A stretch of 32,087 nucleotides of DNA. Origin: Methylobacteriaceae bacterium. Lineage in GTDB: Bacteria > Pseudomonadota > Alphaproteobacteria > Rhizobiales > Beijerinckiaceae. The notes beneath the pieces were generated by a model that searched no databases, was not told the origin of the DNA, and saw only the letters and a program-made list of their open reading frames with translations. The stretch covers positions 1-32,087 of the forward strand of contig JAFAME010000099.1 of NCBI GenBank assembly GCA_019233695.1, given 5' to 3'. Position numbers and translations under genes: made by a program. Of this stretch, positions 4,705 to 32,087 are shown in pieces (within the stretch, counting starts at the first letter, position 1; the number at the start of each line of letters is the position of its first letter).

Positions 4705-5603
4705 CAGGTCTTCCCCGTGATGAAGTCGACAACAGGTGCGGCTCGGATGTTGCGGCTCTCCCCCGCAGGGCGGCGTCCCAGCGGGCGCTTGCCGACGTTC
4801 TGCCGCGCCTGGCCTCGAGCGTCGTCCTCATCGCCGTGGCGCTGGCGGCGACGTTCTACGGAGGCTATTGGTTCGGCCTTGCCGCGCTTGTCGCGGCGGC
4901 CGGCATCCTCTTCGAATGGCAAAACCTCGTTGGCGGCCCGAATGTCGGGCTGCGGATTGGCAGCGGATCGATCGGGCTTGCACTGGCGGTCTATTTCTCG
5001 CTCGACGGCAACCCGCACTGGGCGCTCGCAGCCCTCGTCGCAGCTTCGTTCCTTTTGAGCCTTGCTGCGGGTCCCGACCGGCGCCTGTGGGCCGCAGCTG
5101 GCCCGCTCTACGCCGGCATCATGCTGGTGTCGATTGCGGTCCTGCGCAGCTCGGAGCCGTTCGGCTTCGAGGCCATCATCTGGCTGTTTGCGGTCGTATG
5201 GGGCAACGACACTATGGCGTATTTTGCCGGCCGCCTCGTCGGCGGTCCGAAACTGTGGCCGCGGCTGTCGCCCTCGAAAACCTGGGCCGGGACGGTCGTC
5301 GGCGTCCTCTGCGGTGCATTGGCCGGCCTCGCGGCCGGCATGGCCCTCGGTCCGGCGCCCGGATCGCCGTGGCACTATCTCGCTCTGGGCCTTGCCTGTG
5401 CGTTGGCGGCACTCGCCGGCGATCTCCTCGAATCGTCGATCAAACGGCGGTTTGCCGTCAAGGATTCGAGCGGCTTGATCCCGGGTCACGGAGGGGTCAT
5501 GGATCGCCTCGACGGATTCATTGCAGCCTCGGTCCTGGCGGCCGCCGTCGGAGTGAGCCGTTTCGGCGTCGCCTCCGCGGCTGCCGGGCTGTTCTCCTGG
5601 TAG
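4701..5603 (+). CDS. cdsA: Phosphatidate cytidylyltransferase (CDP-diacylglycerol synthase)
   Basis: This integral inner-membrane enzyme makes CDP-diacylglycerol from phosphatidate and CTP, the branch point for all phospholipids. Several hydrophobic segments run from about residue 35 onward. The diagnostic C-terminal CDS signature is complete: [14 protein letters not shown] followed by [15 protein letters not shown], with the Lys-Asp, His-Gly-Gly and Asp-Arg-x-Asp elements. The ATG at 4701 overlaps the uppS stop (ATGA), which implies translational coupling. At 300 residues it is of typical length. dxr begins within a few bases of the stop. Confidence 0.95.
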
Positions 5604-5604
5604 G

Positions 5605-6849
5605 GTGAGAATGCAACCAAGCTTCGACGGCGGCCGCTTGAGGCCCAAGGGCGATGGCGGGTCGCGCACCGTGACGCTCCTTGGCGCGACGGGATCGATC
5701 GGCCGATCGACGGCTGGCGTCGTGCGCGCGGCAGCGGGCCGGTTCGGCGTCAAGGCGGTTGCAGGCGGCCGCGACGGGGAGGCCCTCGGGCAGACGGCTA
5801 TCGAGCTCGGCGCTTCCTTCGCGGCACTTGCCGATCCCTCCGGCTATCAGGCGCTCAAGGCGGCGGTCGCCGGCCGCGGCATCGAATGCGCCGCTGGCCC
5901 CGACGCGGTCATCGAAGCGGCCGTCCGTCCGGCTGACATCGTCGTGGCCGCCGTCGCGGGGACCGCCGGCGTCATTCCGACCCACGCCGCGCTCGCGGCG
6001 GGACGCACGGTCGCGCTGGCCAACAAGGAAACGCTCGTATGCGCGGGGGCGCCGGTCATGCGGACGGCGCGGGCCGCCGGCGCCAGGCTGCTGCCGCTCG
6101 ACAGCGAGCACAACGCCATCTTTCAGACGCTCGGCGCCACGCCGTCCGCGGCACTCGAACGCATGACGATCACCGCCTCGGGCGGACCGTTCCGCACCTG
6201 GAGCACGGCGGCGATCAGCGCGGCGACACCCGAGCAGGCGCTCGCCCATCCCAACTGGTCGATGGGTGCCAAGGTGACGATCGACTCGGCCACCCTGATG
6301 AACAAGGGGCTCGAACTCATCGAGGCCCACCACCTGTTCGCGATGCCGCCCGCCAAGCTTGCCGTCCTGGTCCACCCGCAATCGATCGTCCACGGCCTCG
6401 TATCATTCGCAGACGGATCGGTCATCGCCTGCCTGGCCCATCCCGACATGCGGGTGCATATCGCCCATTGCCTGGCTTGGCCGGAACGGATCGACATCCC
6501 CACGCGCCGGCTCGATCTTGCCGAGATCGGCGCGCTCCTCTTCGAGGCACCCGATTTCGAGAGGTTCCCTGCGCTTGGACTGGCGATGGCCGCACTGAGA
6601 GACGGGGGCGGCCTGCCGACAATCCTCAATGCCGCCAATGAAATTGCCGTCGAGGCGTTCCTCGCGCGCCGCATCGGCTTTGACGAGATCGCGCGGCTGG
6701 TCTCGAACGTCTGCGAGGCGGCGCAGGCCAACGGCGAGGGGCGCGAGCCGGCGACAGTCGCGGAAGCGCTCGCCGTTGACCATATTGCAAGAGATAGAGC
6801 CCGCGCCATCTTGGCCGACGGCATTCGCTCTGGCATGGTAACTATTTAG
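5605..6849 (+). CDS. dxr: 1-deoxy-D-xylulose 5-phosphate reductoisomerase
   Basis: Dxr converts DXP to MEP using NADPH, the committed step of the MEP isoprenoid pathway, so it supplies precursors to UppS encoded just upstream. The NADPH-binding GATGSIG motif follows a short N-terminal stretch. LANKETLV, SEHNAIFQ, ASGGPF and NKGLELIEAHHLF mark the metal and substrate site with its flexible loop. The start is either GTG at 5605 or ATG at 5611, which changes only two residues. The product is about 412-414 residues, slightly longer than E. coli Dxr because of the N-terminal tail. Confidence 0.97.
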   Translation: MRMQPSFDGGRLRPKGDGGSRTVTLLGATGSIGRSTAGVVRAAAGRFGVKAVAGGRDGEALGQTAIELGASFAALADPSGYQALKAAVAGRGIECAAGPDAVIEAAVRPADIVVAAVAGTAGVIPTHAALAAGRTVALANKETLVCAGAPVMRTARAAGARLLPLDSEHNAIFQTLGATPSAALERMTITASGGPFRTWSTAAISAATPEQALAHPNWSMGAKVTIDSATLMNKGLELIEAHHLFAMPPAKLAVLVHPQSIVHGLVSFADGSVIACLAHPDMRVHIAHCLAWPERIDIPTRRLDLAEIGALLFEAPDFERFPALGLAMAALRDGGGLPTILNAANEIAVEAFLARRIGFDEIARLVSNVCEAAQANGEGREPATVAEALAVDHIARDRARAILADGIRSGMVTI

Positions 6850-6894
6850 TAACCATGCTGGCCAGCCGGCGCCCGGCGCCTGGTCGGGACAGGC

Positions 6895-6930
6895 CGGTCC
6901 GCTCGCACCCCTTTGGGGGCGACCGGACCG
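6895..6930 (+). other. Imperfect GC-rich hairpin between dxr and rseP
   Basis: CGGTCCG-C-TCGCACCCC on the left pairs with GGGGGCGACCGGACCG on the right, with one mismatch and one bulge, around a TTT loop. No T-run follows. It ends 17 bases before the rseP Shine-Dalgarno sequence, so it may modulate readthrough or translation of rseP, or weakly attenuate the operon. Function is inferred from structure alone. Confidence 0.4.
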
Positions 6931-6958
6931 CAAATGGAAGGCCGATCAGGAGGACTTG

Positions 6959-8218
6959 ATGGTTGTGTTCAGCCATGTCGGCTGGGTTGCGGGAAGCGTC
7001 GCACAGTACCTGATCCCGTTCATCTTCGTGCTGACGGCGGTCGTCTTCTTCCATGAGCTCGGCCATTTCCTCATCGGCCGGCTGTGTGGCGTCAAGATCG
7101 ATTCCTTCTCCATCGGCTTCGGGCCGGAGCTCTTCGCCTTCGTCGATCGAGGCGGTACGCGCTGGCGGGTCGCTGCGATCCCGCTCGGCGGATACGTGAA
7201 ATTCCACGGCGACCTCAACGCGGCCAGTGTTCCCGATCCACAGGCCCTGGCAAGCATGTCGCGGGCCGAGCGCGACGTGAGCTTTGCCGGCCAGCCGGTA
7301 TGGAAGCGCGCCGCCATCGTCGCGGCCGGACCGATGGCAAGCTTCCTGTTCGCGATTGCCGTGTTTTCCGCCACCATCTTCGTTTCAGGACAGCGCATCT
7401 TGCTGCCGCGCGTCCAGGTGGTGCCGCTGGCCTGCCCCGAATTGGCGACCTCGCTCCCCGCAAGGCCCGATTTTGCTGCCCTGGACACGCCGCTCTATGC
7501 CAGCACCCAGGACTATCAATTGGCGCAGAACAGCGCCGCCGAAATCGCCGGGTTCAAGCCAGGCGATCTCGTCGTCTCGATCGATGGAAAGCCGATCGAG
7601 ACCTTCTTCGACATCCAGTCGATCGTGTCGATGAGCGCGGACGCTGCGCTGACCTTCGAGGTCCAGCGCGGCGGCAGCCTCGTGCGGCTGCAGGCAACCC
7701 CGCGCCGGGCTGTCGTCTCGACGCCGTTCGGCAAGCAGCGCGAGGCCCGGCTCGGCATCCAGGCCTCCGATGATCCCGCCGACGTGCGCATCGAGCGGGT
7801 GGGCCCTGTAGGCGCCGTCGCGCTGGGCACGAAGAAAACGTGGCAAATCCTCGACGTGACTGCGACTTTTCTTGGGCGGCTCTTTGTCGGCAGGGAGGCG
7901 GCCAACCAGGTGTCCGGACCGATCGGCATTGCCGCGATGTCCGGCGAAATGGCCAAGCTCGGCTTTGACACGCTCTTGAATTGGGCAGCAATTCTCTCCG
8001 CTTCCATCGGTTTTTTCAACCTGCTTCCGATCCCGTTGCTCGACGGCGGTCATCTTCTCTATTTCGGCATCGAGGCGGCGCGCGGACGACCTCTCAGCCT
8101 TCGCGCCCAGGAGGTCGGGTTCCGCATCGGCCTGGCGATCGTGGCGCTGCTGATGGTGTTTGCCACCTCGAACGACCTCATCCGATACATCCCCAAAATC
8201 TTCGGCTTCACGGGTTAA
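6959..8218 (+). CDS. rseP: RseP-type site-2 intramembrane metalloprotease
   Basis: RseP family proteases cut transmembrane substrates, such as anti-sigma factors and leftover signal peptides, inside the inner membrane. The zinc motif HELGH (H32, E33, H36) sits in the first membrane helix, and the second active-site motif NLLPIPLLDGGH is near the C-terminus. One PDZ domain is clear (IAGFKPGDLVVSIDGKPIE, mid-protein), where E. coli RseP has two. The ATG at 6959 is chosen over the adjacent TTG at 6956 because AGGAGG at 6948-6953 is better spaced from it. The dxr-rseP-bamA order is conserved in Proteobacteria. Confidence 0.95.
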   Translation: MVVFSHVGWVAGSVAQYLIPFIFVLTAVVFFHELGHFLIGRLCGVKIDSFSIGFGPELFAFVDRGGTRWRVAAIPLGGYVKFHGDLNAASVPDPQALASMSRAERDVSFAGQPVWKRAAIVAAGPMASFLFAIAVFSATIFVSGQRILLPRVQVVPLACPELATSLPARPDFAALDTPLYASTQDYQLAQNSAAEIAGFKPGDLVVSIDGKPIETFFDIQSIVSMSADAALTFEVQRGGSLVRLQATPRRAVVSTPFGKQREARLGIQASDDPADVRIERVGPVGAVALGTKKTWQILDVTATFLGRLFVGREAANQVSGPIGIAAMSGEMAKLGFDTLLNWAAILSASIGFFNLLPIPLLDGGHLLYFGIEAARGRPLSLRAQEVGFRIGLAIVALLMVFATSNDLIRYIPKIFGFTG

Positions 8219-8381: not shown

Positions 8382-10718
8382 ATGCGCCGCCGGCAAGGAT
8401 CGGGGACCGTTCGTCAAATGCACCTCACGCGAAGTCTTTTGAGCCGACTTGCGTTTGCGATACTGGTCATGGCGGGTTTGGCGGCGTCCGCGCAGATGGC
8501 GCTGGCGCAGCCCGACGGCACTCGCATCAATCGCGTCGCGTTCGAAGGCAACAGCAACATCAAGAGCGAGCAGCTCCTCACCGTCGTCGAGCTGAAATCC
8601 CACGGCATTTTCAATGCCGCGACCGCCGAGCTCGACGTGCGTCGCATCAAGGAGGCCTATCGGCGCGGCGGGCGCAATGCGGCGAGCGTGTCCTATCGCA
8701 CGGTGCCCTTGCCCGACGGGCGCATCGACGTGGTCTACACGATCGACGAAGGCGTCAAGACGGGCGTGAAGGAAATCAATTTCGTCGGCAATCAGGTCTT
8801 TTCGGGCTACAAGCTGCGCAGCCTGATGCAGACGACCGAGTCGAATTTCCTGTCCTGGCTGAAGACCTCCGACGTCTATGATCCGCAGCGGGTTGCCGAC
8901 GACGAGGAGCTCATTCGCCGCTACTACCTCAGGAACGGCTACGCCGATTTCCGCATCGTCAGCACCAACGCCGTCTATGATCCCGATCGGAAGGGCTACA
9001 TCATCACCATCACGCTCGATGAGGGGCCGCAATATCGGGTGAGCAACGTCACCGTCGAATCGCGCATTGCCTCTGTCGATGGGCCGAGCCTTTCGGGCGA
9101 CCTGCGGCTTTCAGCCGGGGATGCATATGACGCCACCGAGGTGGAAAAGACGCTCGAAGCGCTCACCCGCGACGTCCAGCGCAGGGGGTTTGCATTCGTC
9201 CAGGTGCGGCCGCGCGGCGATCGCGATCCCGTCAATCATACGATCGCGATCGGCTTCGTCGTCGATGAGGGTCCCCGCGTCTACATCGAGCGGATCAACA
9301 TCCGCGGCAACACGCGCACCCGCGACTATGTCATTCGCCGCGAGTTCGACATCGGCGAAGGCGATCCCTACAACCGCGTGCTGATCGACAAGGCCGAACG
9401 CCGGCTCAACAACCTCGGCTTCTTCAAGAAGGTCCGCATCACCAACGAGCCGGGCTCTTCGCCCGATCGGGTCATCATCGACGTTGAAGTGGAAGATCAG
9501 CCCACCGGTTCCTTCGGCATCTCGGGCGGTTATTCGACCATCGACGGTATCGTCGGCGAGGTGTCGATCAGCGAATCCAACTTCCTCGGCCGCGGCCAGT
9601 ACGTCCGTCTGGCGGTCACCGAGGGCCAGTATACGCGCGGCGTCGATCTGTCGTTCACCGAACCCTATTTCCTCGATCGACGCATCGCGGCGGGCTTCGA
9701 CCTGTTCCACAAGGAGGTGGATGCATCACAGTTCTCCGACTATGCGACGTGGCTGACCGGCGGCACCATGCGCTTTGGCCTGCCGTTCACCGATGAGATC
9801 ACCCTCACGCCGCGCTATTCGCTGTATACGACGCAGATCAGGATCGAGAACACGCCCTCGGCCCCGTTCGACGACTGTACGAACCCGATCATCGGGACGA
9901 CGCCCGGCACAACCGGGGCTGCGCCGCTTTCTGCCACCGCCAACTGCCTGACGAACGGGGAAGCATCCTTGGCGGTGAAACAGGCGACAGGGAGCACGCT
10001 GACCTCGCTCGTCGGTTACACTATCACCTACAACACGCTCGACAACTACAAGAATCCGACCGACGGGTTCCACGCCGAACTGCGCCAGGATTTTGCCGGT
10101 GTCGGCGGCGATTCGGAGTTTATCCGCACGACCGGCGACATCCGCTACTATCACGAGCTGCTGTTCGACGACTGGGTCGGCATCGCCCGCCTGCAGGGCG
10201 GCTACATCCAGGGCTTCGGCAAGGAGAGTACGCTGCGCATCTCCGATCAATTCCAGATCGGGCCGGACCTCGTGCGCGGCTTTGCCCCGGGCGGCATCGG
10301 CCCGCGCGACATCTCGGCGGGCATCAACTTCAAGGAAAACCCGCTGGGCGGAACCCAGTACTTCGGCGGCTCGCTCGAGCTGCAATTTCCCTTGGGCCTG
10401 CCGCGCGAACTCGGGATGAAGGGCGCGGTATTTGCCGATGCCGGCACCCTGTTCGGCTACAAGGGTGCGACAAACCTCAGCCCACTGCTCGGACTGCCCG
10501 CCGGGACCGCGTGCTTTCCGGGGAATACGGCTCCGAACTTCACCCAGAGCAATTGCGTGACGGTGCGCGATTCGAGCAAGATCCGCTCCTCGGTGGGAGC
10601 AAGCCTGATCTGGGCCTCGCCGCTTGGGCCCATACGCTTCGACTATGCCTTTGTCCTCTCCAAGGATAAATACGACGACACACAGGCGTTCCGCTTCTCG
10701 GGCGGAACGACGTTCTAG
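8382..10718 (+). CDS. bamA: Outer membrane protein assembly factor BamA
   Basis: BamA is the essential Omp85 channel that inserts beta-barrels into the outer membrane. The order is signal peptide (hydrophobic core LAFAILVMAGLAAS, cleavage near AQMALAQ), five POTRA repeats over roughly residues 40-360 (first one begins INRVAFEGNSNI), then a 16-strand barrel. The barrel carries the loop-6 RGF motif (LVRGFAPGGIGPRD), and the protein ends in a phenylalanine beta-signal (GGTTF). The start is uncertain: ATG 8382 has GAGAAAG about 7 bases ahead and gives 778 residues, while ATG 8418 gives a more compact signal peptide. rseP is upstream and lpxD downstream, as is usual. Confidence 0.96.
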   Translation: MRRRQGSGTVRQMHLTRSLLSRLAFAILVMAGLAASAQMALAQPDGTRINRVAFEGNSNIKSEQLLTVVELKSHGIFNAATAELDVRRIKEAYRRGGRNAASVSYRTVPLPDGRIDVVYTIDEGVKTGVKEINFVGNQVFSGYKLRSLMQTTESNFLSWLKTSDVYDPQRVADDEELIRRYYLRNGYADFRIVSTNAVYDPDRKGYIITITLDEGPQYRVSNVTVESRIASVDGPSLSGDLRLSAGDAYDATEVEKTLEALTRDVQRRGFAFVQVRPRGDRDPVNHTIAIGFVVDEGPRVYIERINIRGNTRTRDYVIRREFDIGEGDPYNRVLIDKAERRLNNLGFFKKVRITNEPGSSPDRVIIDVEVEDQPTGSFGISGGYSTIDGIVGEVSISESNFLGRGQYVRLAVTEGQYTRGVDLSFTEPYFLDRRIAAGFDLFHKEVDASQFSDYATWLTGGTMRFGLPFTDEITLTPRYSLYTTQIRIENTPSAPFDDCTNPIIGTTPGTTGAAPLSATANCLTNGEASLAVKQATGSTLTSLVGYTITYNTLDNYKNPTDGFHAELRQDFAGVGGDSEFIRTTGDIRYYHELLFDDWVGIARLQGGYIQGFGKESTLRISDQFQIGPDLVRGFAPGGIGPRDISAGINFKENPLGGTQYFGGSLELQFPLGLPRELGMKGAVFADAGTLFGYKGATNLSPLLGLPAGTACFPGNTAPNFTQSNCVTVRDSSKIRSSVGASLIWASPLGPIRFDYAFVLSKDKYDDTQAFRFSGGTTF

Positions 10719-10829
10719 GGCGCGCCCCACGACACTGTCCTCAGTGCCGGGTCGGCTAGCCGGCGCGAGGGACAGAGCGGGAGGACAGGTGGCGCACTCC
10801 ATTTCGGTCGAGCGGGCCGCGCCCGTCGC

Positions 10830-11894
10830 ATGAGCGATCCGGTCTTTTTCCGCCGCGCCTGCGAGCCGTCGCTGGCCGAGGTCGTGGCGTGGACGGGAGC
10901 GCGCCCGCCCGACGGCGCCGATCTTGCCAAAACCGTCAGCGGCGTCGCACCGATCGACCAGGCGGGGCCCGGCGATCTCGTATTTCTCGACAACCCGAAA
11001 TATGCGACGGGTCTCGCAGTTACGCGCGCGGTTGCCTGCCTGTTGCCCGCGCGCCATGTCGAGCGCGTCCCCTCCGGCACGGTCGCGCTGGTGACTGAGG
11101 AGCCCTATCGCGCCTTCGCGCTGGTGGTCGGAAAGGTCTATCCCGAGGCGTCGCGACCTGGCTCGCTCTTCGGCGCGACCGGAGTGTCGCCCGGCGCCAT
11201 CATCCACCCGGAGGCGCGGCTCGAATCGGGCGTCATCGTCGATCCCGGCGCCGTGATCGGCCCGCGGGCGGAAATCGGGGAGGGCACCGTTGTGGGAGCC
11301 AATGCGGTGATCGGTCCGGACGTGCGGATCGGCCGTGCCTGTTCGGTCGGGCCGAATTGCACGATCGTCCACGCCCTTGTCGGCGACCGCGTGATCCTGC
11401 ACGCCGGCGTTCGTGTGGGGCAGGACGGATTCGGCTTCGCCATGGGTCCACGTGGCCATCTCAAGATTCCGCAGGTCGGACGGGTCATCATCCAGGATGA
11501 TGTCGAGATTGGCGCCGGCACGACGATTGATCGCGGCGCCAATCGCGATACGCTGATCGGCGAGGGCACCAAGATCGACAACCTCGTGCAAATCGGACAT
11601 AACGTCGTGGTTGGCCGCCATTGCGTCATCGTCGCGCAGGCCGGCATCTCGGGTTCCTGCACTCTCGGGGATTTTGTCGCGATCGGCGGACAAGCGGGAC
11701 TTACCGGCCACCTCAACATCGGCACGGGCGCCCAGATCGCCGCCTCGGCGGGGTTGATGAACGATGTGCCGGCCGGCGAGCGTTGGGTAGGGGCTCCGGC
11801 GCAGCCGCATCGCGATTTCTTCCGCGAGGTGGCGGCCGTGCGCAAGCTCGTGCGCCGCAACGGAGGAGGCGGCAAGGACCCCGGGCGCCAGTGA
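10830..11894 (+). CDS. lpxD: UDP-3-O-(3-hydroxyacyl)glucosamine N-acyltransferase
   Basis: LpxD adds the second 3-hydroxyacyl chain, from acyl-ACP, to the glucosamine nitrogen in lipid A synthesis. The N-terminal uridine-binding domain (about residues 1-110, with [12 protein letters not shown]) is followed by a left-handed beta-helix of hexapeptide repeats (from [11 protein letters not shown]). The catalytic His is in [12 protein letters not shown] (H257). At 354 residues it is of family length. The gene lies 111 bases after bamA. Its stop overlaps an in-frame ATG of the fabZ reading frame (TGATG at 11892-11896). Confidence 0.96.
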
Positions 11895-11944
11895 TGCGCC
11901 GCCCGCGCCCGAAAGGCGCCACGGCTGGTGCGAAGGAAGAGGTC

Positions 11945-12409
11945 ATGGACGATACGGCGCCGAAGACGCTCGAAGCGGTCGAGATCCTGCAACTCCTGAA
12001 ACTCCTGCCGCATCGCTATCCGTTCCTGCTCGTCGATCGCATCATCGATATTCATGGCGACGACGCCTGTATCGGCATCAAGAACGTCACCTTCAACGAG
12101 CCGCAGTTCCAGGGTCACTTCCCCGAGTATCCGGTGATGCCCGGCGTGTTCCTGATCGAGGGAATGGCGCAGACCGCGGGCGCCGTCTGCGTCTATGCCC
12201 AGACCGCCGCCTCCAAGCCCAAGGTCGTCTACTTCATGACCATCGACAAGGCGAAGTTCCGCAAACCGGTGATGCCAGGCGATACGATCGAGTATCACAT
12301 GAGGAAGATCAACAAGCGCCGCAACATGTGGTGGTATCGCGGCGAGGCCAAGGTCCGCGGCGCGCTGGTCTGCGAGGCCGAAGTCAGCGCCATGCTGGTG
12401 ATGGACTGA
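11945..12409 (+). CDS. fabZ: 3-hydroxyacyl-[acyl-carrier-protein] dehydratase FabZ
   Basis: FabZ dehydrates 3-hydroxyacyl-ACP in fatty-acid elongation and so competes with LpxA and LpxD for the same substrate, which explains its place between them. The hot-dog-fold signatures [13 protein letters not shown] and [20 protein letters not shown] are intact, with catalytic H58 and E72. The ATG at 11945 (154 residues) is preceded by AAGGAAGAGG, a strong ribosome binding site. An in-frame ATG at 11894 would add 17 basic residues not typical of FabZ. lpxA starts 5 bases after the stop. Confidence 0.97.
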
Positions 12410-25824: not shown

Positions 25825-26409
25825 TCAGTTGACGACCGCGATTTCGACAGGCACCACTCCGGCGCGCTCCATGCCGATGGCGCGGGCAGCGCCGACCGTC
25901 AGTCCGATCCCGCCCCGGCAGCCGCAGCGATCGACGATGCGCACGACGACCGACTTGCCGCTCGCCTTGCTGGTGACGCGCACCCGGCTGCCGAACGGCA
26001 GGCTCGGGTGGGCACCGAGCATCGCCCAGGGCTGGAACGGCTCGCCGGAGGCCGTGTGCGCCTTCGGATTCGGCGTCGTGAAGGTCGCCCACACGGTGCG
26101 CGCGTCGGAAGACGGCTCGGTCGGCGGCGGCAGCGCGGCCTCGGTGCCCGGCGCCGGCGGGTCGAACTGCGGGGCAGGCGAACTCATGAGCAGCGGCCCC
26201 GCAGGACCGCCATTGGCGAGACCGCCGAACGGGCTGCCTGTCGGGAGCTGGGGGCCTGCCACCTCTGCAACCTTCGATGCCGCGGCACTTGCCGCAATAT
26301 GCGGCGAAGGCGGCCGTGCGGGTGGAGCGTAAAGCAACGCATCCTGCGAGACGGCGAACCCGGCCGCAGCAACAGCGACAATAGCTCGTAACGCAGACGC
26401 AAACACCAC
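25825..26409 (-). CDS. RlpA-like double-psi beta-barrel secreted protein
   Basis: RlpA proteins act on denuded peptidoglycan glycan strands at the septum or cell wall. The 194-residue product begins with a hydrophobic signal-like segment (LRAIVAVAAAGFAVS), then a long Pro- and Ala-rich linker (about residues 28-103). The C-terminal barrel holds VWATFTTPNPKAHTASGEPFQPWAMLGAHPSLPFGSRVRV and VVVRIVDRCGCRGGIGLT. The usual DRGPF-x-IDLS block is altered to D-R-C-G-C-R-G-G-x-G-L-T, and there is no SPOR domain, so lytic activity is uncertain. The start is GTG 26409, followed by a second GTG. It is convergent with gapR. Confidence 0.8.
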   Translation of the reverse strand: MVFASALRAIVAVAAAGFAVSQDALLYAPPARPPSPHIAASAAASKVAEVAGPQLPTGSPFGGLANGGPAGPLLMSSPAPQFDPPAPGTEAALPPPTEPSSDARTVWATFTTPNPKAHTASGEPFQPWAMLGAHPSLPFGSRVRVTSKASGKSVVVRIVDRCGCRGGIGLTVGAARAIGMERAGVVPVEIAVVN

Positions 26410-26819: not shown

Positions 26820-28229
26820 TCAGAACCTGAAGTAGATGAACGGATTGAACGATGAGGCGGACAACGAGATGACTGACAGAGCCATCACCACGAACGCAGA
26901 GGCATATTTGACCGCCAGCCTGACGCCGCCGGCGGTGCCGAGCGCGCTCAATCGTTCGACAGGGAACCAGGCAAAGAAAATCGCCACCGCGTAGACGAAC
27001 TGCTTGTCCGCCTCGAGGTAGTACCAGATCGGATAGTAGACGACTTCCGGGCGGCTGATGCCGACCATGACCGACAGATAGTGCCAGCCGAAGCTCAGGT
27101 CGCTGCACCGGATAAAAGCGAAGCCCAAGACCGTCAATCCGAAGGTCAAGGGCATGGCCCAAATCCCGCGTTGGACTCTGCCATACCTTATCGCGACATA
27201 TCGTTCGATCGCCATGAGGACGCCTTGATAAGCCCCCCAAATCACAAAGTTTGGCGTCGGGCCATGCCACAAACCGCACAGGACGAAAACGAACACCAGG
27301 GCAAAGTAACTGCGAACGGAAGGTCGCGAGCCTCCGAGAGGAATGAACACGTAGTCGCGAAACCATCGAAATAGCGTGATGTGCCAACGACGCCAGAACT
27401 CGGTGATGCTCTGGGCGCGGAAGGGCTGATTGAAATTCTCCGGCAATTTGAAGCCGAGGATCCTGCCGAGACCGATGGCCATGTCGGAATAACCGGCGAA
27501 GTCGTAGTACGCTTGCAAGCCGTAACTGAACGCCCCCAGCCAGGCCACCACGAAGCCCAATTCCGCTTGGGGCAGCGAGAAGATCGCCTCGGAAACCGAT
27601 CCTATGGGGTTGGCAATCAGGAGCTTCTTGCCCAGACCGAGCGTAAACCGGTATGTCCCCTCCGCGGCCCCCTCCCAGGTGAGGTTGCGCGTGACCACTT
27701 GGGCCGCCACCTCGGAGTAGCGAACAATGGGCCCGGCCAGGAGCTGTGGAAACAGGGAATGATAGGTGCCGAAATCGACCAGGCTTTTCGTAGGCTCGAC
27801 CTGCTCCAAATACACGTCGGCCAGGTAGGAGATCGCCTGGAAGGTGAAAAATGAAATCCCCAGGGGCAAAACCAGCTCAGGTGCGGTGACCGGAATGTCA
27901 ACGCCAAAGAAATGCAACGCTGAGTCGGAAATGCCAAGCAGGAAGGCCCTGTATTTATAATACACAAGGAAGGATAGGTTGAATACAACAGATAGCCAAA
28001 AGAAATATGTTTTCCATCGGTCCGCAAGTTGCAATATTATCCTCGCAAAGACATAGTTGGCAATTACCGAAATGGCAAGCAGCAGCACGTATGTACCAGT
28101 ACCAAGCGCGTAGAATAGAAGGTTGGCAAGCAGCAGTAGGTGGTTTTTGTAACGCCTTGGTGTCGGTACGTATAACAGTAAAAATGACGGCAGGAATACA
28201 AACAAAAATATGTTAGAACTGAACACCAT
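26820..28229 (-). CDS. MBOAT family O-acyltransferase (AlgI-like)
   Basis: A multi-spanning inner-membrane acyltransferase of the AlgI/DltB/PatA type, which passes acyl groups from a cytoplasmic donor to an extracytoplasmic acceptor. The 469 residues contain about ten hydrophobic segments and family blocks: LPLGISFFTFQAISYLADVY (122-141), QLLAGPIVRY, YYDFAGYSDMAIGLGRILG, ITEFWRRWHITLFRWFRDYVF with H283, and CGLWHGPTPNFVIWG with the catalytic H322. It is last in a probable six-gene operon, 15 bases after the SGNH gene. GC is low in its 5' third (25 of 60 bases in 28141-28200). The acceptor is unknown; a surface polysaccharide or cell-wall glycan is the natural guess. Confidence 0.93.
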   Translation of the reverse strand: MVFSSNIFLFVFLPSFLLLYVPTPRRYKNHLLLLANLLFYALGTGTYVLLLAISVIANYVFARIILQLADRWKTYFFWLSVVFNLSFLVYYKYRAFLLGISDSALHFFGVDIPVTAPELVLPLGISFFTFQAISYLADVYLEQVEPTKSLVDFGTYHSLFPQLLAGPIVRYSEVAAQVVTRNLTWEGAAEGTYRFTLGLGKKLLIANPIGSVSEAIFSLPQAELGFVVAWLGAFSYGLQAYYDFAGYSDMAIGLGRILGFKLPENFNQPFRAQSITEFWRRWHITLFRWFRDYVFIPLGGSRPSVRSYFALVFVFVLCGLWHGPTPNFVIWGAYQGVLMAIERYVAIRYGRVQRGIWAMPLTFGLTVLGFAFIRCSDLSFGWHYLSVMVGISRPEVVYYPIWYYLEADKQFVYAVAIFFAWFPVERLSALGTAGGVRLAVKYASAFVVMALSVISLSASSFNPFIYFRF

Positions 28230-28244
28230 GCTCGAGCGACCTAG

Positions 28245-29555
28245 CTAGGGAGTTGGGCCTACGTCAAAGAGAGGGTACACGAACCGGTCAATTGTGCCTT
28301 CGTTGAATATCAGCAAGAAATATTTTATGCCCTGAGGCATCGCATCGACAACCTCCTTAAGCTGGCGGTTATTTTCTCTGGATCGGTACACTGCCGCGAA
28401 TTCATCCTGAAGTCCTGCTAGAGCGAAGTGGTCAGCAAATGAGTCGCCGTAAATGACCACCGGTGGAAGGCGATCACTCAGATATATGTCTCTTGTGTGA
28501 TAGACATATTCAAATATGGAGCTCTCATTCATGGCCTCAAAACCGTGAAAGTTGGGATCTTTTTCCCAATAGCCAAGGTTAGTGTCCGCAAACGGGAACT
28601 CTATGTTTTTTGGTACAAGGATGTTTTCCGTAAATGATCCAAACAATCCTAGAAAACGCTGGTCCGATCCGGCCGGATAGGGCCATCGATAGTAGTCGGA
28701 GAACTTCCGCCACGGGGGCATACCAATTCGCGCGTCTGCAGCGATTGAATTCGCGATTGCCGGCCCTATCGCCAGGGCACCCCAAAAATTCAGATGAGGG
28801 TCAGAGCGATAGTACAGTGCCGCCTGAGCGGTCTTTGCGTCGAGCGCCGCACGAAGAGCCGCATTCGCGTCGACATAGATGACGTTAGTCCAGTTCTTCA
28901 AGGTTACTTCGACTTCATAGGGAAGGAATCGCTCGGGTAGACGCGGGGCTGAGATTGGAAGATACTCTCGATAGAAGTCGCCTTTCGGTGGAATTGGCAC
29001 AATGACTAGCTTGATGCCTCGGCGAGCTAAATAATCATTCAGATTGCGCAAATGTGTCAAGATCAGTCCTTTATTCCTCTCTAACACAGGAGCCGAGCGA
29101 CTGTTCTTAATTTCATAGTCGAAGAAGCGCTTTTCGAAAAGGAAGTCATTCTCGCCAATGTACTCTCGGGCGCTGACGTTGAAAAGGCGGTACTCCATCT
29201 CGTTGTAGAGGCGAATGAAAGGTGCCCGGAACCCGAACTTGTCATCGAACCAACCGCTGAGGGTGGCCGGCAGTTGCGGATCGTGACGAGCGAGGCGGGT
29301 CAAATAGTCGTCGAGGACGGTCGGTTCTCTCCGTTCATCGAGCGGTTCGAACTGCCAAATCGGAAACAGTGTCTGGACAATGCCGACCGCGAGGAAACAT
29401 GCGACCAATGCGACGTAGAGGATCGAGATGGATTTGTCGGATATTCGGCCGGCAAGGCTTCGCCTGGCCGCGTGCCCCGGAGGCTCGGCGGTCACGGACA
29501 GGGAGGCGGTGTTCGCAGCCTCCGCCACATAGGTCGCGTCAACACCGGGAGACAT
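28245..29555 (-). CDS. AlgJ/AlgX-like SGNH acetyltransferase-related membrane protein
   Basis: A 436-residue protein with a cytoplasmic N-terminus, one membrane anchor (about residues 43-66, SISILYVALVACFLAVGIV) and a large periplasmic domain of the AlgJ/AlgX/DltD class. The domain has SGNH-like features: the nucleophile motif YGDSFADHF (S372) and the paired D252-P-H254 in SDPHLNFWG. YEVEVTLKNWTN and the FDDKFGFRAPFIRLYN segment near residue 110 are typical of AlgJ-like proteins. Such proteins accept an acyl group from the MBOAT partner and place it on the glycan. It lies directly upstream of the MBOAT gene. GC is low (24 of 60 in 28501-28560). The ATG at 29555 lacks a strong ribosome binding site, so the start is provisional. 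Confidence 0.88.
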   Translation of the reverse strand: MSPGVDATYVAEAANTASLSVTAEPPGHAARRSLAGRISDKSISILYVALVACFLAVGIVQTLFPIWQFEPLDERREPTVLDDYLTRLARHDPQLPATLSGWFDDKFGFRAPFIRLYNEMEYRLFNVSAREYIGENDFLFEKRFFDYEIKNSRSAPVLERNKGLILTHLRNLNDYLARRGIKLVIVPIPPKGDFYREYLPISAPRLPERFLPYEVEVTLKNWTNVIYVDANAALRAALDAKTAQAALYYRSDPHLNFWGALAIGPAIANSIAADARIGMPPWRKFSDYYRWPYPAGSDQRFLGLFGSFTENILVPKNIEFPFADTNLGYWEKDPNFHGFEAMNESSIFEYVYHTRDIYLSDRLPPVVIYGDSFADHFALAGLQDEFAAVYRSRENNRQLKEVVDAMPQGIKYFLLIFNEGTIDRFVYPLFDVGPTP

Positions 29556-29626
29556 GACGAGGCGACTCGCATTCGGCGCGGAAAAAAGTCAAGTCACGTA
29601 TCAATTCGTGGGCTCGGCCGCCTCCA

Positions 29627-29935
29627 TCAGATCCCCGCAACGCCCTTCTTGCGCAAAACCAAGCGTGCCATTCCCACCGTTCGCATGCTCATTATCTCTC
29701 GGGTCGTCAATTCGACCGAGAACCCCTCTTCGATTGCGGCCACCAGGTTCATGGCGGCAAGGCTGTCCCATTGGGAGGTGTTGTCCGGCGAGGTCTCGTC
29801 GGTGATGTCCGACGGCGCAAGCTTGAGAACTTGCGCAAATACCTGATGGACGAGATCTGCCACGATTTGCCCTTTCGCCTTAGATGCAAGCCCTTTGGCC
29901 AGCGTCAGCTTTGGGTTTGCAAAAATGAACCTCAT
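29627..29935 (-). CDS. Acyl carrier protein
   Basis: A dedicated carrier protein that tethers an acyl group on 4'-phosphopantetheine. The attachment Ser is S58 in SQWDSLAAMNLVAAIEEGFSVEL, and VHQVFAQVLKLAPSDI and LTTREIMSMRTVGMARLVL complete the four-helix fold. From ATG 29935, which overlaps the upstream VOC gene stop by ATGA, it is 102 residues with an unusual basic N-terminal 24-residue extension. A GTG at 29863 with GAAAGGG about 6 bases ahead would give a standard 78-residue carrier. It differs from a housekeeping AcpP, which would be more acidic and sit beside fabF. The operon context points to a role as acyl donor for the MBOAT. Confidence 0.9.
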   Translation of the reverse strand: MRFIFANPKLTLAKGLASKAKGQIVADLVHQVFAQVLKLAPSDITDETSPDNTSQWDSLAAMNLVAAIEEGFSVELTTREIMSMRTVGMARLVLRKKGVAGI

Positions 29936-30369
29936 GCGGGGAAACCCGGCGGAATCGGACCCTCGATGATCTCGATCACCCCCATCCCCACGAGCTGGTA
30001 GAATGAGACCGGCGAGCCTCCGAAGAGCACCGCCGGTTTCGGCGGGGCCACGCAAACCGCTCGCAGGCGCGCATCATCGAGGGCCGACAGGCTGGCCTCG
30101 AGGTTCTCGGAGACATAACAGGCGTGGTAGATGAGGCCGTCACTGTGACGGGCCATCAATCCGTCCACCGGGCTTGGTCCCTTGGCGGGATAAATGACCT
30201 CTACGGCGGGCTGCTTATCGTGGTGACACATGATCAGGTTGACGTTCTGTTCGGGATCGAAAACCGGCTCGCCGACGCGGTAGCCCAGACCGTCGAGAAA
30301 CCTCTCCGCCGGCCCCTTGTCGCGCACCGCCAAGCCTAGATGATGAAAAGCGAGACTGAACCGGTTCAT
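29932..30369 (-). CDS. VOC (glyoxalase/epimerase fold) protein
   Basis: A 145-residue vicinal-oxygen-chelate protein with two beta-alpha-beta-beta-beta modules. Candidate metal ligands are H9 or H10 in FHHLGLAV, Glu in AVEVIYP, His in LIYHACYV and Glu in GVIEIIEG. This layout resembles methylmalonyl-CoA epimerase and related lyases. In this operon an epimerase, isomerase or lyase acting on the acyl-carrier thioester is conceivable, but no substrate can be read from sequence. It overlaps by ATGA with both the methyltransferase upstream and the carrier protein downstream, so all three are probably made in step. Confidence 0.85.
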   Translation of the reverse strand: MNRFSLAFHHLGLAVRDKGPAERFLDGLGYRVGEPVFDPEQNVNLIMCHHDKQPAVEVIYPAKGPSPVDGLMARHSDGLIYHACYVSENLEASLSALDDARLRAVCVAPPKPAVLFGGSPVSFYQLVGMGVIEIIEGPIPPGFPA

Positions 30370-31310
30370 GCCTTTTTCAGCACATAGGCGACGTTGATTG
30401 GAAGTTGCTGTGCGGCGGACTCCTCGACCGTTGTGCCGGCATAGGGACCACAGAATCTCCTGATGACAGTGAGGCCGTTGGAACCGGCCATATCCTCCAC
30501 CTCGTGGAGGTCCCGGAACAGGTAGATATGATCGACGGCCGGAGCATTGACGCACGTCGTGACAAAAATATGAGTGTCAGGACTGCTGATCGTGGCGATC
30601 GTGCGCAGAAAGCGGGCAGGGTCCTCGACATGCTCCAGCACTTCGCCCATAACGATGCAGGAATAAGGCTCCGAAGCACCGTCGAAGGAGAGAAAATCGG
30701 TTTGGACGAGTTCGACGCGGCGCTGCTTGTCGATTCCGAAATGCCGGATGATATCCTGCGTGAGCGCGATCGAAGCCGCGCTGATATCGACCCCGATGAG
30801 CTTGTCGAAATGCCCGAACTGGGCCGCCTGCATGAAATAGTAGCCATGGCCCGGGCCTATTTCGAGATAGGTGCCGGTCGCCCCTGCCGGAAACGTCTCC
30901 GTAAAAAACCGATGAATGGCAGTGTGATTTGGCCATAAAAAGGAGGTAACCGCCAGTCCGTACATGTATTTGCGCATATAGTCATTGTTAAAGTAGACTT
31001 TGTCGGCAACCTCGGAGAAGCGGCTCCAGCGATATTTCTTATGCTTGCGAAAGTAAATCTGCTCCATCTGGGTGTCAAGCGTGATCGTATTATAGCAATC
31101 AACCACATAGTTGAGCGGCAAGCCGATAGACGAACAGTAGCTGAGATAATCTTCGAGTTGCTCGCGTGTCTCGGCACTGGCGACACGCAACGCCGCCCTT
31201 ATGAAGTTCGCGTGCATGGGATTTTCAGCGATGACCCCTGCCACAAATTCGTCGCTCAAGCGCGCGTGGGCGACCACCGCTAACTCTCCCAATTGAGAGG
31301 ACCGGAACAT
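30366..31310 (-). CDS. SAM-dependent methyltransferase with unknown N-terminal domain
   Basis: A class I SAM methyltransferase. The binding motif is TYLEIGPGHGYYFMQAA, the acidic ribose contact is IGVDIS, and the post-motifs are VELVQTDFLSF and SCIVMGEVLEHVEDPARFL. About 130 residues precede the SAM domain: a helical region (LSYCSSIGLPLNYVVDCYNTI and aromatic-rich FNNDYMRKYMYGL) I cannot place, perhaps for carrier or substrate binding. The start is uncertain: ATG 31310 gives 314 residues, while TTG 31343, just after GGAAGG, adds 11. In methoxymalonyl-ACP pathways an O-methyltransferase works on the carrier-bound unit made by FkbH, a suggestive parallel. It ends in an ATGA overlap with the VOC gene. 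Confidence 0.85.
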   Translation of the reverse strand: MFRSSQLGELAVVAHARLSDEFVAGVIAENPMHANFIRAALRVASAETREQLEDYLSYCSSIGLPLNYVVDCYNTITLDTQMEQIYFRKHKKYRWSRFSEVADKVYFNNDYMRKYMYGLAVTSFLWPNHTAIHRFFTETFPAGATGTYLEIGPGHGYYFMQAAQFGHFDKLIGVDISAASIALTQDIIRHFGIDKQRRVELVQTDFLSFDGASEPYSCIVMGEVLEHVEDPARFLRTIATISSPDTHIFVTTCVNAPAVDHIYLFRDLHEVEDMAGSNGLTVIRRFCGPYAGTTVEESAAQQLPINVAYVLKKA

Positions 31311-31358
31311 TTTTCGTGATCGGGAAGCATCCAATATCTCCAAGCCTTCCGGCCATCG

Positions 31359-32087
31359 TCACGTTGCGGCAGCTGCGGGCGTGGTCGCCGGGGACAGGAT
31401 CGCGGGCTGCGGCAGCGATTCACTCGCCGTGGGCGGTCGCTCAACTTCGTCCTTGGCTGGAAGCTCGGTGGCAATGGTCCACTGCGTCTCGCTCACGGGG
31501 TGAAAGCCGTGTTCGGCCAGGAAGTTGGCCGCCAGGACATTCTTTTTCGTGGGGATGTAGGCGGCATCCATGCTGGCGACACCAGCCCGACAGGCATCGG
31601 CCATCAGGCCCGACAGGAACGAGCCCTCGACGCCGCGGCCGAGGACCCGGCAACTCAGGAGAAACGTGTCGATGCGCCAACGAACCGCCGGCTCGACGAT
31701 CTCCACGATCGCCACTCCGACAAGACCATAGTCCCCGAACCTATCGGCTACCCGCAGCGCATAGACCCGCCAGTTCGGCGAGGCGTGGAGCGCCTCGACC
31801 TCCTCGAGCGAGCGGCGGATGGTGGTGAGGTTGAACTGATTGGTCTTGTTGATAAGCTGGGCGATCCGGTCCAGGTCCTCGGGCATGGCTTCGAAGAGCT
31901 CCACGCGCAGGTCGAGTTCCCGAAGGAAATCCTCCTTGCTCAAGTGAGCGAGCGTGGCCTCGCGCTGCTGCTCGGCGCGCATCATATCGGCGCGGCCCCG
32001 GTCCTCGGCGGTGATTTCGAGGCGGTCGAAATGGGCCAGGGCCCGCAACATCGGCAGGATCTCGGCCGGTTCCTCCGGGAGAAGGAC
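31359..32087 (-). CDS. FkbH-like protein, C-terminal part (cut by window edge)
   Basis: The reading frame enters from the right edge with no start seen, and 242 residues are visible. FDRLEITAEDRGRADMMRAEQQRE and INKTNQFNLTTIRRSLEEVEAL are diagnostic of the C-terminal half of HAD-IIIC/FkbH proteins, which continue into a GNAT-like acyltransferase domain (VRWRIDTFLLSCRVLGRGVEGSFLSGL, then AANFLAEHGFHPV). FkbH enzymes take a glyceryl unit from 1,3-bisphosphoglycerate, remove phosphate and load it on a carrier protein. The HAD phosphatase half lies outside the window, so activity cannot be confirmed. The end is a Pro- and Ala-rich tail. It is the first visible gene of the operon; the methyltransferase starts within 50 bases of its stop. 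Confidence 0.88.
   Translation of the reverse strand, partial: VLLPEEPAEILPMLRALAHFDRLEITAEDRGRADMMRAEQQREATLAHLSKEDFLRELDLRVELFEAMPEDLDRIAQLINKTNQFNLTTIRRSLEEVEALHASPNWRVYALRVADRFGDYGLVGVAIVEIVEPAVRWRIDTFLLSCRVLGRGVEGSFLSGLMADACRAGVASMDAAYIPTKKNVLAANFLAEHGFHPVSETQWTIATELPAKDEVERPPTASESLPQPAILSPATTPAAAAT

Follow-up and report, generated by a model that had tools for sequence, protein, structure and literature searches.

The window, by which we mean the whole 32,087-nucleotide stretch that was analysed (Methylobacteriaceae bacterium, assembly GCA_019233695.1, contig JAFAME010000099.1), contains six translationally packed genes on the minus strand (32087-26820) in the order fkbH, methyltransferase, VOC, ACP, SGNH and MBOAT (Table 1). 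The spacing is operon-like: 15 bp separate fkbH from the methyltransferase gene, ATGA overlaps join the latter to the VOC gene and this in turn to the ACP gene, and gaps of 71 bp and 15 bp lie before the SGNH and MBOAT genes. A first-pass annotation made from the letters alone had described six closely packed same-strand genes; these are present, with support from Pfam and NCBIfam profiles. The window is an entire contig (C496 in our set), and the 5' end of fkbH is therefore cut and its HAD half unreadable. No glycan genes were found within the window.

Table 1. Genes and predicted functional sites of the operon in window coordinates.
Feature	Position	Strand	Remarks
fkbH, C-terminal 242 codons only	31359..32087	-	5' part missing at contig end; motif NKTNQFN
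Class I SAM-dependent methyltransferase, 325 aa	30366..31343	-	TTG start, alternative ATG at 31310; helical N-terminal extension
VOC protein, methylmalonyl-CoA epimerase type	29932..30369	-	Likely metal ligands H10, E57, H82, E133; ATGA overlap with methyltransferase gene
Dedicated ACP, 102 aa	29627..29935	-	ATGA overlap with VOC gene
ACP, predicted phosphopantetheine serine codon (QWDSL)	29762..29764	-	
AlgJ/AlgX-like SGNH protein	28245..29555	-	Likely one N-terminal membrane segment; block-I GDSF, Asp-His block DPHLN
SGNH, predicted catalytic serine codon (YGDSF)	28440..28442	-	
MBOAT acyltransferase, 469 aa	26820..28229	-	Histidine motifs RRWHIT and GLWHG
MBOAT, C-terminal acyl-shuttle hexapeptide FIYFRF (consensus FxYxxF)	26823..26840	-	

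The operon forms a low-GC mosaic island beside housekeeping genes. GC content is 0.53-0.56 for the methyltransferase, SGNH, MBOAT and ACP genes, 0.62 for VOC and 0.66 for fkbH, against about 0.70 for the flanking genes, and the nearest relatives are mixed (Acidobacteria for the methyltransferase, a genome of the same family for VOC). Such low and uneven GC, the mosaic relatives and an fkbH cut at the contig edge could be read as gene fragments assembled by transfer, the island then being in decay or incomplete and non-functional here. We regard this reading as hardly credible: five reading frames are complete, their catalytic motifs are intact, ATGA couplings are present, and the cut in fkbH is the end of the assembly.

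Components of the operon

The FkbH fragment matches TIGR01686 (1.7e-40, positions 129-320 of 323) but, at 139.1 bits, stays below the cut-off (146.65), only the C-terminal part being available. The FkbH proteins of relatives in like loci are complete and carry the DxDxT motif (DLDNT). Polyketide FkbH proteins have been proposed to load glycerate from 1,3-bisphosphoglycerate onto an ACP (PMC7489565). The two further fkbH copies in the genome (C308 and C174) are different genes. The idea that C174 contains the lost 5' part of the window gene was rejected (57% protein identity over 44 overlapping residues, no DNA overlap); upstream of the C174 copy a decayed ACP is suspected, by eye only. The ACP of the operon itself is recognised by PF00550 (5.6e-9) and has the motif WDSL.

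The methyltransferase belongs to PF13489 (1.4e-17). Its AlphaFold model is weak (core only, pLDDT 61), and Foldseek searches with it returned generic O- and C-methyltransferases, leaving O- versus C-methylation undecided. An ACP gene adjoins members of this methyltransferase family even where no FkbH was found (L072, L083, L085-L087). The VOC protein matches PF13669 (1.4e-14) with methylmalonyl-CoA epimerase as the nearest equivalog, whose cut-off is not reached (TIGR03081, 40 bits, cut-off 114.95). Judged by its sequence, it is related to methylmalonyl-CoA epimerase but is not that enzyme itself. It aligns with the human epimerase, and the epimerase-type metal ligands H/E(Q)/H/E (here H10, E57, H82 and E133) are conserved across the VOC set, trimmed fragments excepted; the AlphaFold model, built from two sequences, is weak (pLDDT 37). 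Two loci have the VOC gene together with FkbH, ACP and MBOAT and no methyltransferase (L096, L098), which makes it most likely that VOC acts on the carrier-bound acyl group itself. For the methyltransferase and VOC, searches of plasmids returned loci that were few, though informative.

The SGNH protein (PF16822 ALGX, 7.4e-12) aligns with the solved structure of AlgJ (PDB 4o8v), and the catalytic serine (GDSF) and the Asp-His pair (DPHLN) that characterise the partner of a PatA/AlgI-type MBOAT are both in place. The MBOAT (PF03062, 4.7e-29) has DltB as its nearest equivalog and aligns with solved DltB; the equivalog cut-off is not reached (TIGR04091, 164.6 bits, cut-off 375). With its C-terminal FIYFRF and the conserved histidine motifs it fits the published definition of the PatA/AlgI type (PMC12148441). 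The FxYxxF end, which serves as acyl-tyrosine carrier in PatA and DltX (PMC12148441), is found in the window MBOAT and in most partner MBOATs.

The gene set in other genomes

In an unbiased survey of alphaproteobacterial FkbH loci (n=32 besides the window), an MBOAT gene adjoins 13, from about ten families, and an ACP gene is present in all 13; about 0.1 such loci would be expected by chance. Under our own genome-size assumption, the probability of this co-location arising by chance is estimated at about 1e-25, and at 2.5e-12 with a fivefold MBOAT density and families collapsed. The FkbH-ACP-MBOAT combination is not accidental. Co-occurrence in other genomes had been named at the outset as a check, and indeed many families, as well as a second phylum, contain the set. 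Complete versions were seen in three loci (L069, L073, L151), of which L151, from the same family, has ACP-FkbH-MT-MT-MBOAT-SGNH-VOC (MT, methyltransferase) in a single run on one strand with a complete FkbH. An Acidobacteriaceae locus (L034) has FkbH-SGNH-MBOAT-MT-VOC, its methyltransferase being 61% identical to that of the window. The methyltransferase and VOC are optional members of the set.

Relatives provide the polysaccharide setting, namely an XrtA locus (L077) and loci with glycosyltransferases or GDP-mannose dehydratase (L093, L094, L096). The two-dehydrogenase pair of methoxymalonyl synthesis occurs in no MBOAT-FkbH locus and is not in the window; acyl-CoA-dehydrogenase-like and 3-hydroxyacyl-CoA-dehydrogenase-like genes were found only in a dehydrogenase-type locus of the same class, which lacks an MBOAT (L106). 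The first-pass annotation had inferred a non-polyketide end product from the missing dehydrogenases, whose absence now extends to every MBOAT-FkbH locus. FkbH, ACP and methyltransferase do belong to methoxymalonyl-ACP pathways (PMC7489565), and one could imagine a secreted small-molecule precursor (methoxymalonyl- or tetronate-like) that the MBOAT esterifies instead of a polymer. This scenario is improbable: both pathway dehydrogenases are missing, complete relatives show no sign of a polyketide synthase, and the AlgJ-like partner and the polysaccharide neighbours favour a polymer.

One or two modifications

The FkbH-associated MBOATs are polyphyletic, and strongly supported branches force five or more label changes. 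The MBOAT of the window and a paralogue of the same genome (C249) are sisters (100/99), and the paralogue has an SGNH partner and no FkbH or ACP nearby; use of a carrier is thus not implied by ancestry. This is the main doubt about our best reading. It favours a scenario in which one glycan receives two separate modifications: a cytoplasmic transferase would move (methyl)glyceryl from the ACP to a nucleotide- or lipid-linked sugar, and the MBOAT-SGNH pair would O-acetylate the exported polymer from acetyl-CoA. Cytoplasmic N-acylation would also fit the FkbH loci without MBOAT that belong to clusters of the pseudaminic/neuraminate or amidotransferase type (L100, L103, L104, L105, L113), and C. 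jejuni is known to have pseudaminic acid bearing di-O-methylglyceric acid (PMC3068675). Against it, neither the operon nor the compact relatives L151 and L155 showed a cytoplasmic sugar acyltransferase, the MBOAT is the only acyl-transfer enzyme common to all three, and the ACP gene lies directly beside the MBOAT gene in four loci (L091, L096, L098, L099). We consider two separate modifications unlikely but not to be dismissed. That the carrier product has other uses too follows from the MT-VOC-FkbH loci without MBOAT (L033, L035, L081).

Proposed mechanism

Our preferred reading is a carrier-protein-fed transmembrane acylation system, which probably transfers a (methyl)glyceryl group to an envelope or exported polysaccharide. 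FkbH would convert 1,3-bisphosphoglycerate to glyceryl-S-ACP. The methyltransferase would methylate the ACP-bound glyceryl, most likely at a hydroxyl, and VOC would act at the thioester's alpha-carbon, whose configuration it probably sets. Once finished, the acyl group is predicted to pass from the ACP to the MBOAT on the cytoplasmic side and to be loaded, on the periplasmic side, on the tyrosine in the C-terminal FIYFRF of the MBOAT itself, from where the SGNH serine would receive it and esterify the cell-envelope or exported polysaccharide.

The genomic evidence for such a system is strong, comprising gene content, packing, motifs, recurrence, the absence of polyketide-type dehydrogenases and polysaccharide neighbours in relatives. 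Substrate identity, the order of tailoring, direct acyl donation from ACP to MBOAT and the nature of the acceptor are all inferred, and the AlphaFold models of VOC and methyltransferase are weak. The interpretation of the first-pass annotation is supported with the same reservation: acyl group, ACP-to-MBOAT step and acceptor remain inferences.

Comparison with known systems

In our best reading the operon works like Dlt, i.e. carrier-fed, with a PatA/AlgI-type MBOAT, and is a member of neither system. With Dlt (DltA/DltC/DltB/DltD/DltX, D-alanylation of teichoic acid) it shares the thioester on a dedicated carrier, the MBOAT with its SGNH partner and, by inference, transmembrane transfer to an envelope polymer; the defining combination of a dedicated carrier with MBOAT and SGNH partner is met. 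In contrast to Dlt, its loader would be FkbH. No DltA-type adenylating ligase was found among the operon proteins searched (what precedes fkbH lies beyond the contig edge), nor was one seen beside FkbH in the complete relatives L151, L069 and L073. Unlike in Dlt, no separate DltX-like gene was identified in the operon, the FxYxxF being part of the MBOAT; the transferred group would be a glycolysis-derived hydroxy acid tailored by methyltransferase and VOC, and the host is Gram-negative.

PatA/PatB and AlgI/AlgJ/AlgX O-acetylation resembles the operon in the C-terminal FxYxxF shuttle of the MBOAT and the periplasmic AlgJ/AlgX-type SGNH protein. Those systems have no dedicated carrier, the donor of PatA being acetyl-CoA (PMC12148441), whereas the operon adds ACP, FkbH, methyltransferase and VOC. 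A carrier gene is present here and in all 13 surveyed MBOAT-FkbH loci; that it serves as the donor is inferred.

FK520-type and tetronate cassettes for glyceryl- or methoxymalonyl-ACP likewise have an FkbH proposed to load glyceryl on a stand-alone ACP, and a methyltransferase (PMC7489565); the operon lacks the two dehydrogenases and the polyketide machinery of methoxymalonyl cassettes and has the MBOAT-SGNH pair instead. The same type of acyl group, glyceroyl or di-O-methylglyceroyl, decorates nonulosonic acids of C. jejuni flagellin and T. forsythia. Some NeuB/PseI-type clusters in Alphaproteobacteria contain FkbH, without the MBOAT-SGNH pair. Gellan, too, bears L-glyceryl groups, for which no gene link was found in the open-licence literature. 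The gene for the T. forsythia glyceroyl group has been called elusive (PMC6120980).

Conclusions

No description of this gene set was found in the open-licence literature on FkbH with MBOAT, AlgI or HAD-IIIC. This is weak evidence of absence; it agrees with the earlier statement that no characterised system with this exact set is known. According to a 2025 paper, Dlt is the exception among MBOAT-SGNH systems, the others having no carrier protein and evidently drawing on acyl-CoA (PMC12148441). The operon and its relatives are a genome-predicted counter-example to this carrier-free rule, in which the donor could be tailored before export. On balance we lean, with little more than even confidence, towards a second, widespread class of carrier-fed MBOAT-SGNH acylation in Gram-negatives, in which ACP-built glycerate (often mono- or di-O-methylated, perhaps epimerised) would be esterified to surface polysaccharides and acyl-CoA-type MBOATs would have come to use the carrier on several independent occasions. 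The loci offer specific candidates for the genes behind glyceric and methylglyceric groups of bacterial glycans, a point described as open in T. forsythia (PMC6120980), and suggest a route for decorating surface polymers with groups beyond acetyl or alanyl.

Results

Six minus-strand genes running leftward occupy the right end of the window, which is the entire contig C496 of a draft assembly (5.36 Mb in 514 contigs). Class-level kinship with a Tistrella genome that carries plasmid pTM1 places the assembly in the Alphaproteobacteria. ATGA overlaps join the methyltransferase gene (MT) to VOC and VOC to ACP, and gaps of 15 bp separate fkbH from MT and SGNH from MBOAT. The family assignments are solid. 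The ACP carries QWDSL; the SGNH protein carries GDSF and DPHLN and can be aligned to solved AlgJ; the MBOAT carries RRWHIT and GLWHG and can be aligned to solved DltB. The MBOAT ends in FIYFRF, a match to FxYxxF; in PatA and DltX the tyrosine of this acyl-shuttle motif becomes acylated (PMC12148441). The VOC protein is alignable to human methylmalonyl-CoA epimerase and keeps H10, E57, H82 and E133, which the set's remaining VOC proteins share. The FkbH fragment contains NKTNQFN and lacks the HAD half, its gene being cut at the contig end. AlphaFold models were weak.

Coordinates of the operon genes and of features discussed in the text
Feature	Location	Coordinates	Strand	Remark
fkbH	window	32087-31359	minus	5' end cut
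methyltransferase	window	31343-30366	minus	
VOC	window	30369-29932	minus	
ACP	window	29935-29627	minus	
SGNH	window	29555-28245	minus	
MBOAT	window	28229-26820	minus	
RlpA-like gene	window	25825-26409	minus	
second fkbH	L007 (C174)	3-1253	minus	cut at contig end
third fkbH	L008 (C308)	10140-12290		complete, 716 aa
MBOAT-SGNH paralogues	L009 (C249)	5370-7960		
ligase/Acyl_transf_3 fusion	L091	3451-6300		949 aa
E1 + E2 genes, MT-family gene	L085	6415-10745		also in L086, L087
unannotated family	L033	8404-9657		no Pfam match
unannotated family	L035	13451-14770		no Pfam match

GC content is 0.53-0.56 in MT, ACP, SGNH and MBOAT versus about 0.66-0.70 before the drop, and is higher in fkbH (0.66) and VOC (0.62); given this unevenness, the region resembles a mosaic insert adjoining housekeeping genes. 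MBOAT is followed about 410 bp downstream, on the same strand, by an RlpA-like double-psi-beta-barrel gene; with a GC content (0.71) at flank level, this gene probably does not belong to the island.

FkbH itself was used as query in 289 genomes of the class, which avoids choosing loci by their methyltransferase. Among 32 annotated FkbH loci (window excluded), 13 have an MBOAT within 8 kb, a minimum, as three of the 32 lie on contigs <5 kb and cannot be fully judged. All 13 contain an ACP, five the methyltransferase and four the VOC gene; MBOAT and ACP were counted from profile matches. With MBOAT occurring in the class at a base rate of 58 matches per 115 genomes, and the mean genome size taken as 3.3 Mb, about 0.1 such loci are expected by chance; assuming a fivefold MBOAT density and collapsing families still leaves a binomial probability of about 2.5e-12.

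The methyltransferase query retrieved an Acidobacteriaceae contig with FkbH-SGNH-MBOAT-MT-VOC (methyltransferase 61% identical), Tistrella with FkbH, MT, ACP, MBOAT and SGNH, Paroceanicella with ACP-FkbH-MT-VOC without MBOAT, and further members of the class and phylum. All six gene types are present in each of two loci (L069, L073). Genus g28, of the same family as the window genome, has ACP-FkbH-MT-MT-MBOAT-SGNH-VOC on a single strand (L151), and a second, partly assembled copy (L155). In L151 FkbH is complete (DLDNTLW and NKSNQFN), the MBOAT ends in FLYFNF and the SGNH-like protein contains GPSR and DYGH; the tandem methyltransferases, 41% identical to each other, would be compatible with a di-O-methyl product. 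Gene calls in the retrieved loci come from a simple home-made predictor, so some starts may be truncated and some small genes overlooked.

In two ACP-FkbH-MT-VOC loci (L033, L035) an unannotated family of 417-440 aa replaces MBOAT; in Paroceanicella a gene of this family is followed by mprF and acvB. An AMP-binding ligase/Acyl_transf_3 fusion adjoins FkbH-ACP-MBOAT in L091.

One locus (L077) lies within an XrtA exopolysaccharide locus (chain-length determinant, EpsB_2, glycosyltransferase, ligase), and GDP-mannose dehydratase or glycosyltransferases occur near L093, L094 and L096. Among the FkbH loci that lack MBOAT are NeuB/PseI-type and WbuX-type clusters (L100, L103, L104, L105, L113), sialic-acid-type or sugar-amidotransferase clusters in which FkbH mostly comes with ACP. 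Glyceroyl groups on nonulosonic acids are known chemically in C. jejuni (PMC3068675) and T. forsythia (PMC6120980). These five loci are candidates for such groups, and their FkbH fits a parallel, cytoplasmic use of glyceroyl.

Discussion

Gene set, packing, motifs, recurrence and the absence of methoxymalonyl dehydrogenases are directly supported; the chemistry of every step is inferred from family knowledge, without biochemical data. FkbH would convert 1,3-bisphosphoglycerate to glyceryl-S-ACP (PMC7489565), the acyl group would be methylated while on the carrier, and VOC may act like an epimerase at the alpha-carbon. The acyl group would then pass from MBOAT via Tyr to the SGNH serine and on to a putative acceptor polymer, by analogy with the relay established for PatA-PatB and Dlt (PMC12148441).

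Methylation on the carrier fits the ACP staying beside the methyltransferase even where no FkbH was detected (L072, L083, L085-L087). In L085-L087, E1 and E2 2-oxoacid dehydrogenase-like genes precede a methyltransferase-family gene with ACP and may represent an alternative ACP-loading route. The probable substrate of VOC is the acyl group while bound to the carrier, because L096 and L098 keep VOC with FkbH-ACP-MBOAT in the absence of the methyltransferase. L106, a locus without MBOAT, is the only one with the acyl-CoA-dehydrogenase and 3-hydroxyacyl-CoA-dehydrogenase genes used in methoxymalonyl synthesis.

The main doubt about carrier-fed acylation comes from the MBOAT tree (41 sequences). 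FkbH association is scattered on it and takes no fewer than five changes to explain, and the window MBOAT forms a fully supported sister pair with an MBOAT on contig C249 of the same genome. The C249 MBOAT and its SGNH partner, which share 46% and 31% identity with their window counterparts, lie beside apparent ribosomal protein genes and have neither FkbH nor ACP in their vicinity. Both observations point to FkbH-ACP modules having recruited MBOAT-SGNH pairs several times. Either each recruited MBOAT switched to ACP as donor, or the pair acetylates from acetyl-CoA and a different enzyme uses the ACP. We consider the switch more likely, an inference favored because MBOAT is the sole acyl-transfer enzyme common to the compact loci and directly adjoins ACP in several. 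Elsewhere in the same genome, a second fkbH (C174) breaks off at almost the same position as the window copy and may have a decayed ACP immediately upstream; a third (C308) has an extra N-terminal region and neither ACP nor MBOAT beside it.

The operon system resembles Dlt in its inferred use of a carrier protein, and PatA/AlgI in that its MBOAT bears its own shuttle motif. Unlike Dlt, it has no DltA, and its MBOAT does not reach the DltB cut-off; from the acetylation systems it differs by its carrier module. No description of this gene set was found in the open literature, to which our search was limited. MBOAT-SGNH pathways other than Dlt have been viewed as working without a carrier protein (PMC12148441); at the genome level, the operon's gene set contradicts this view.
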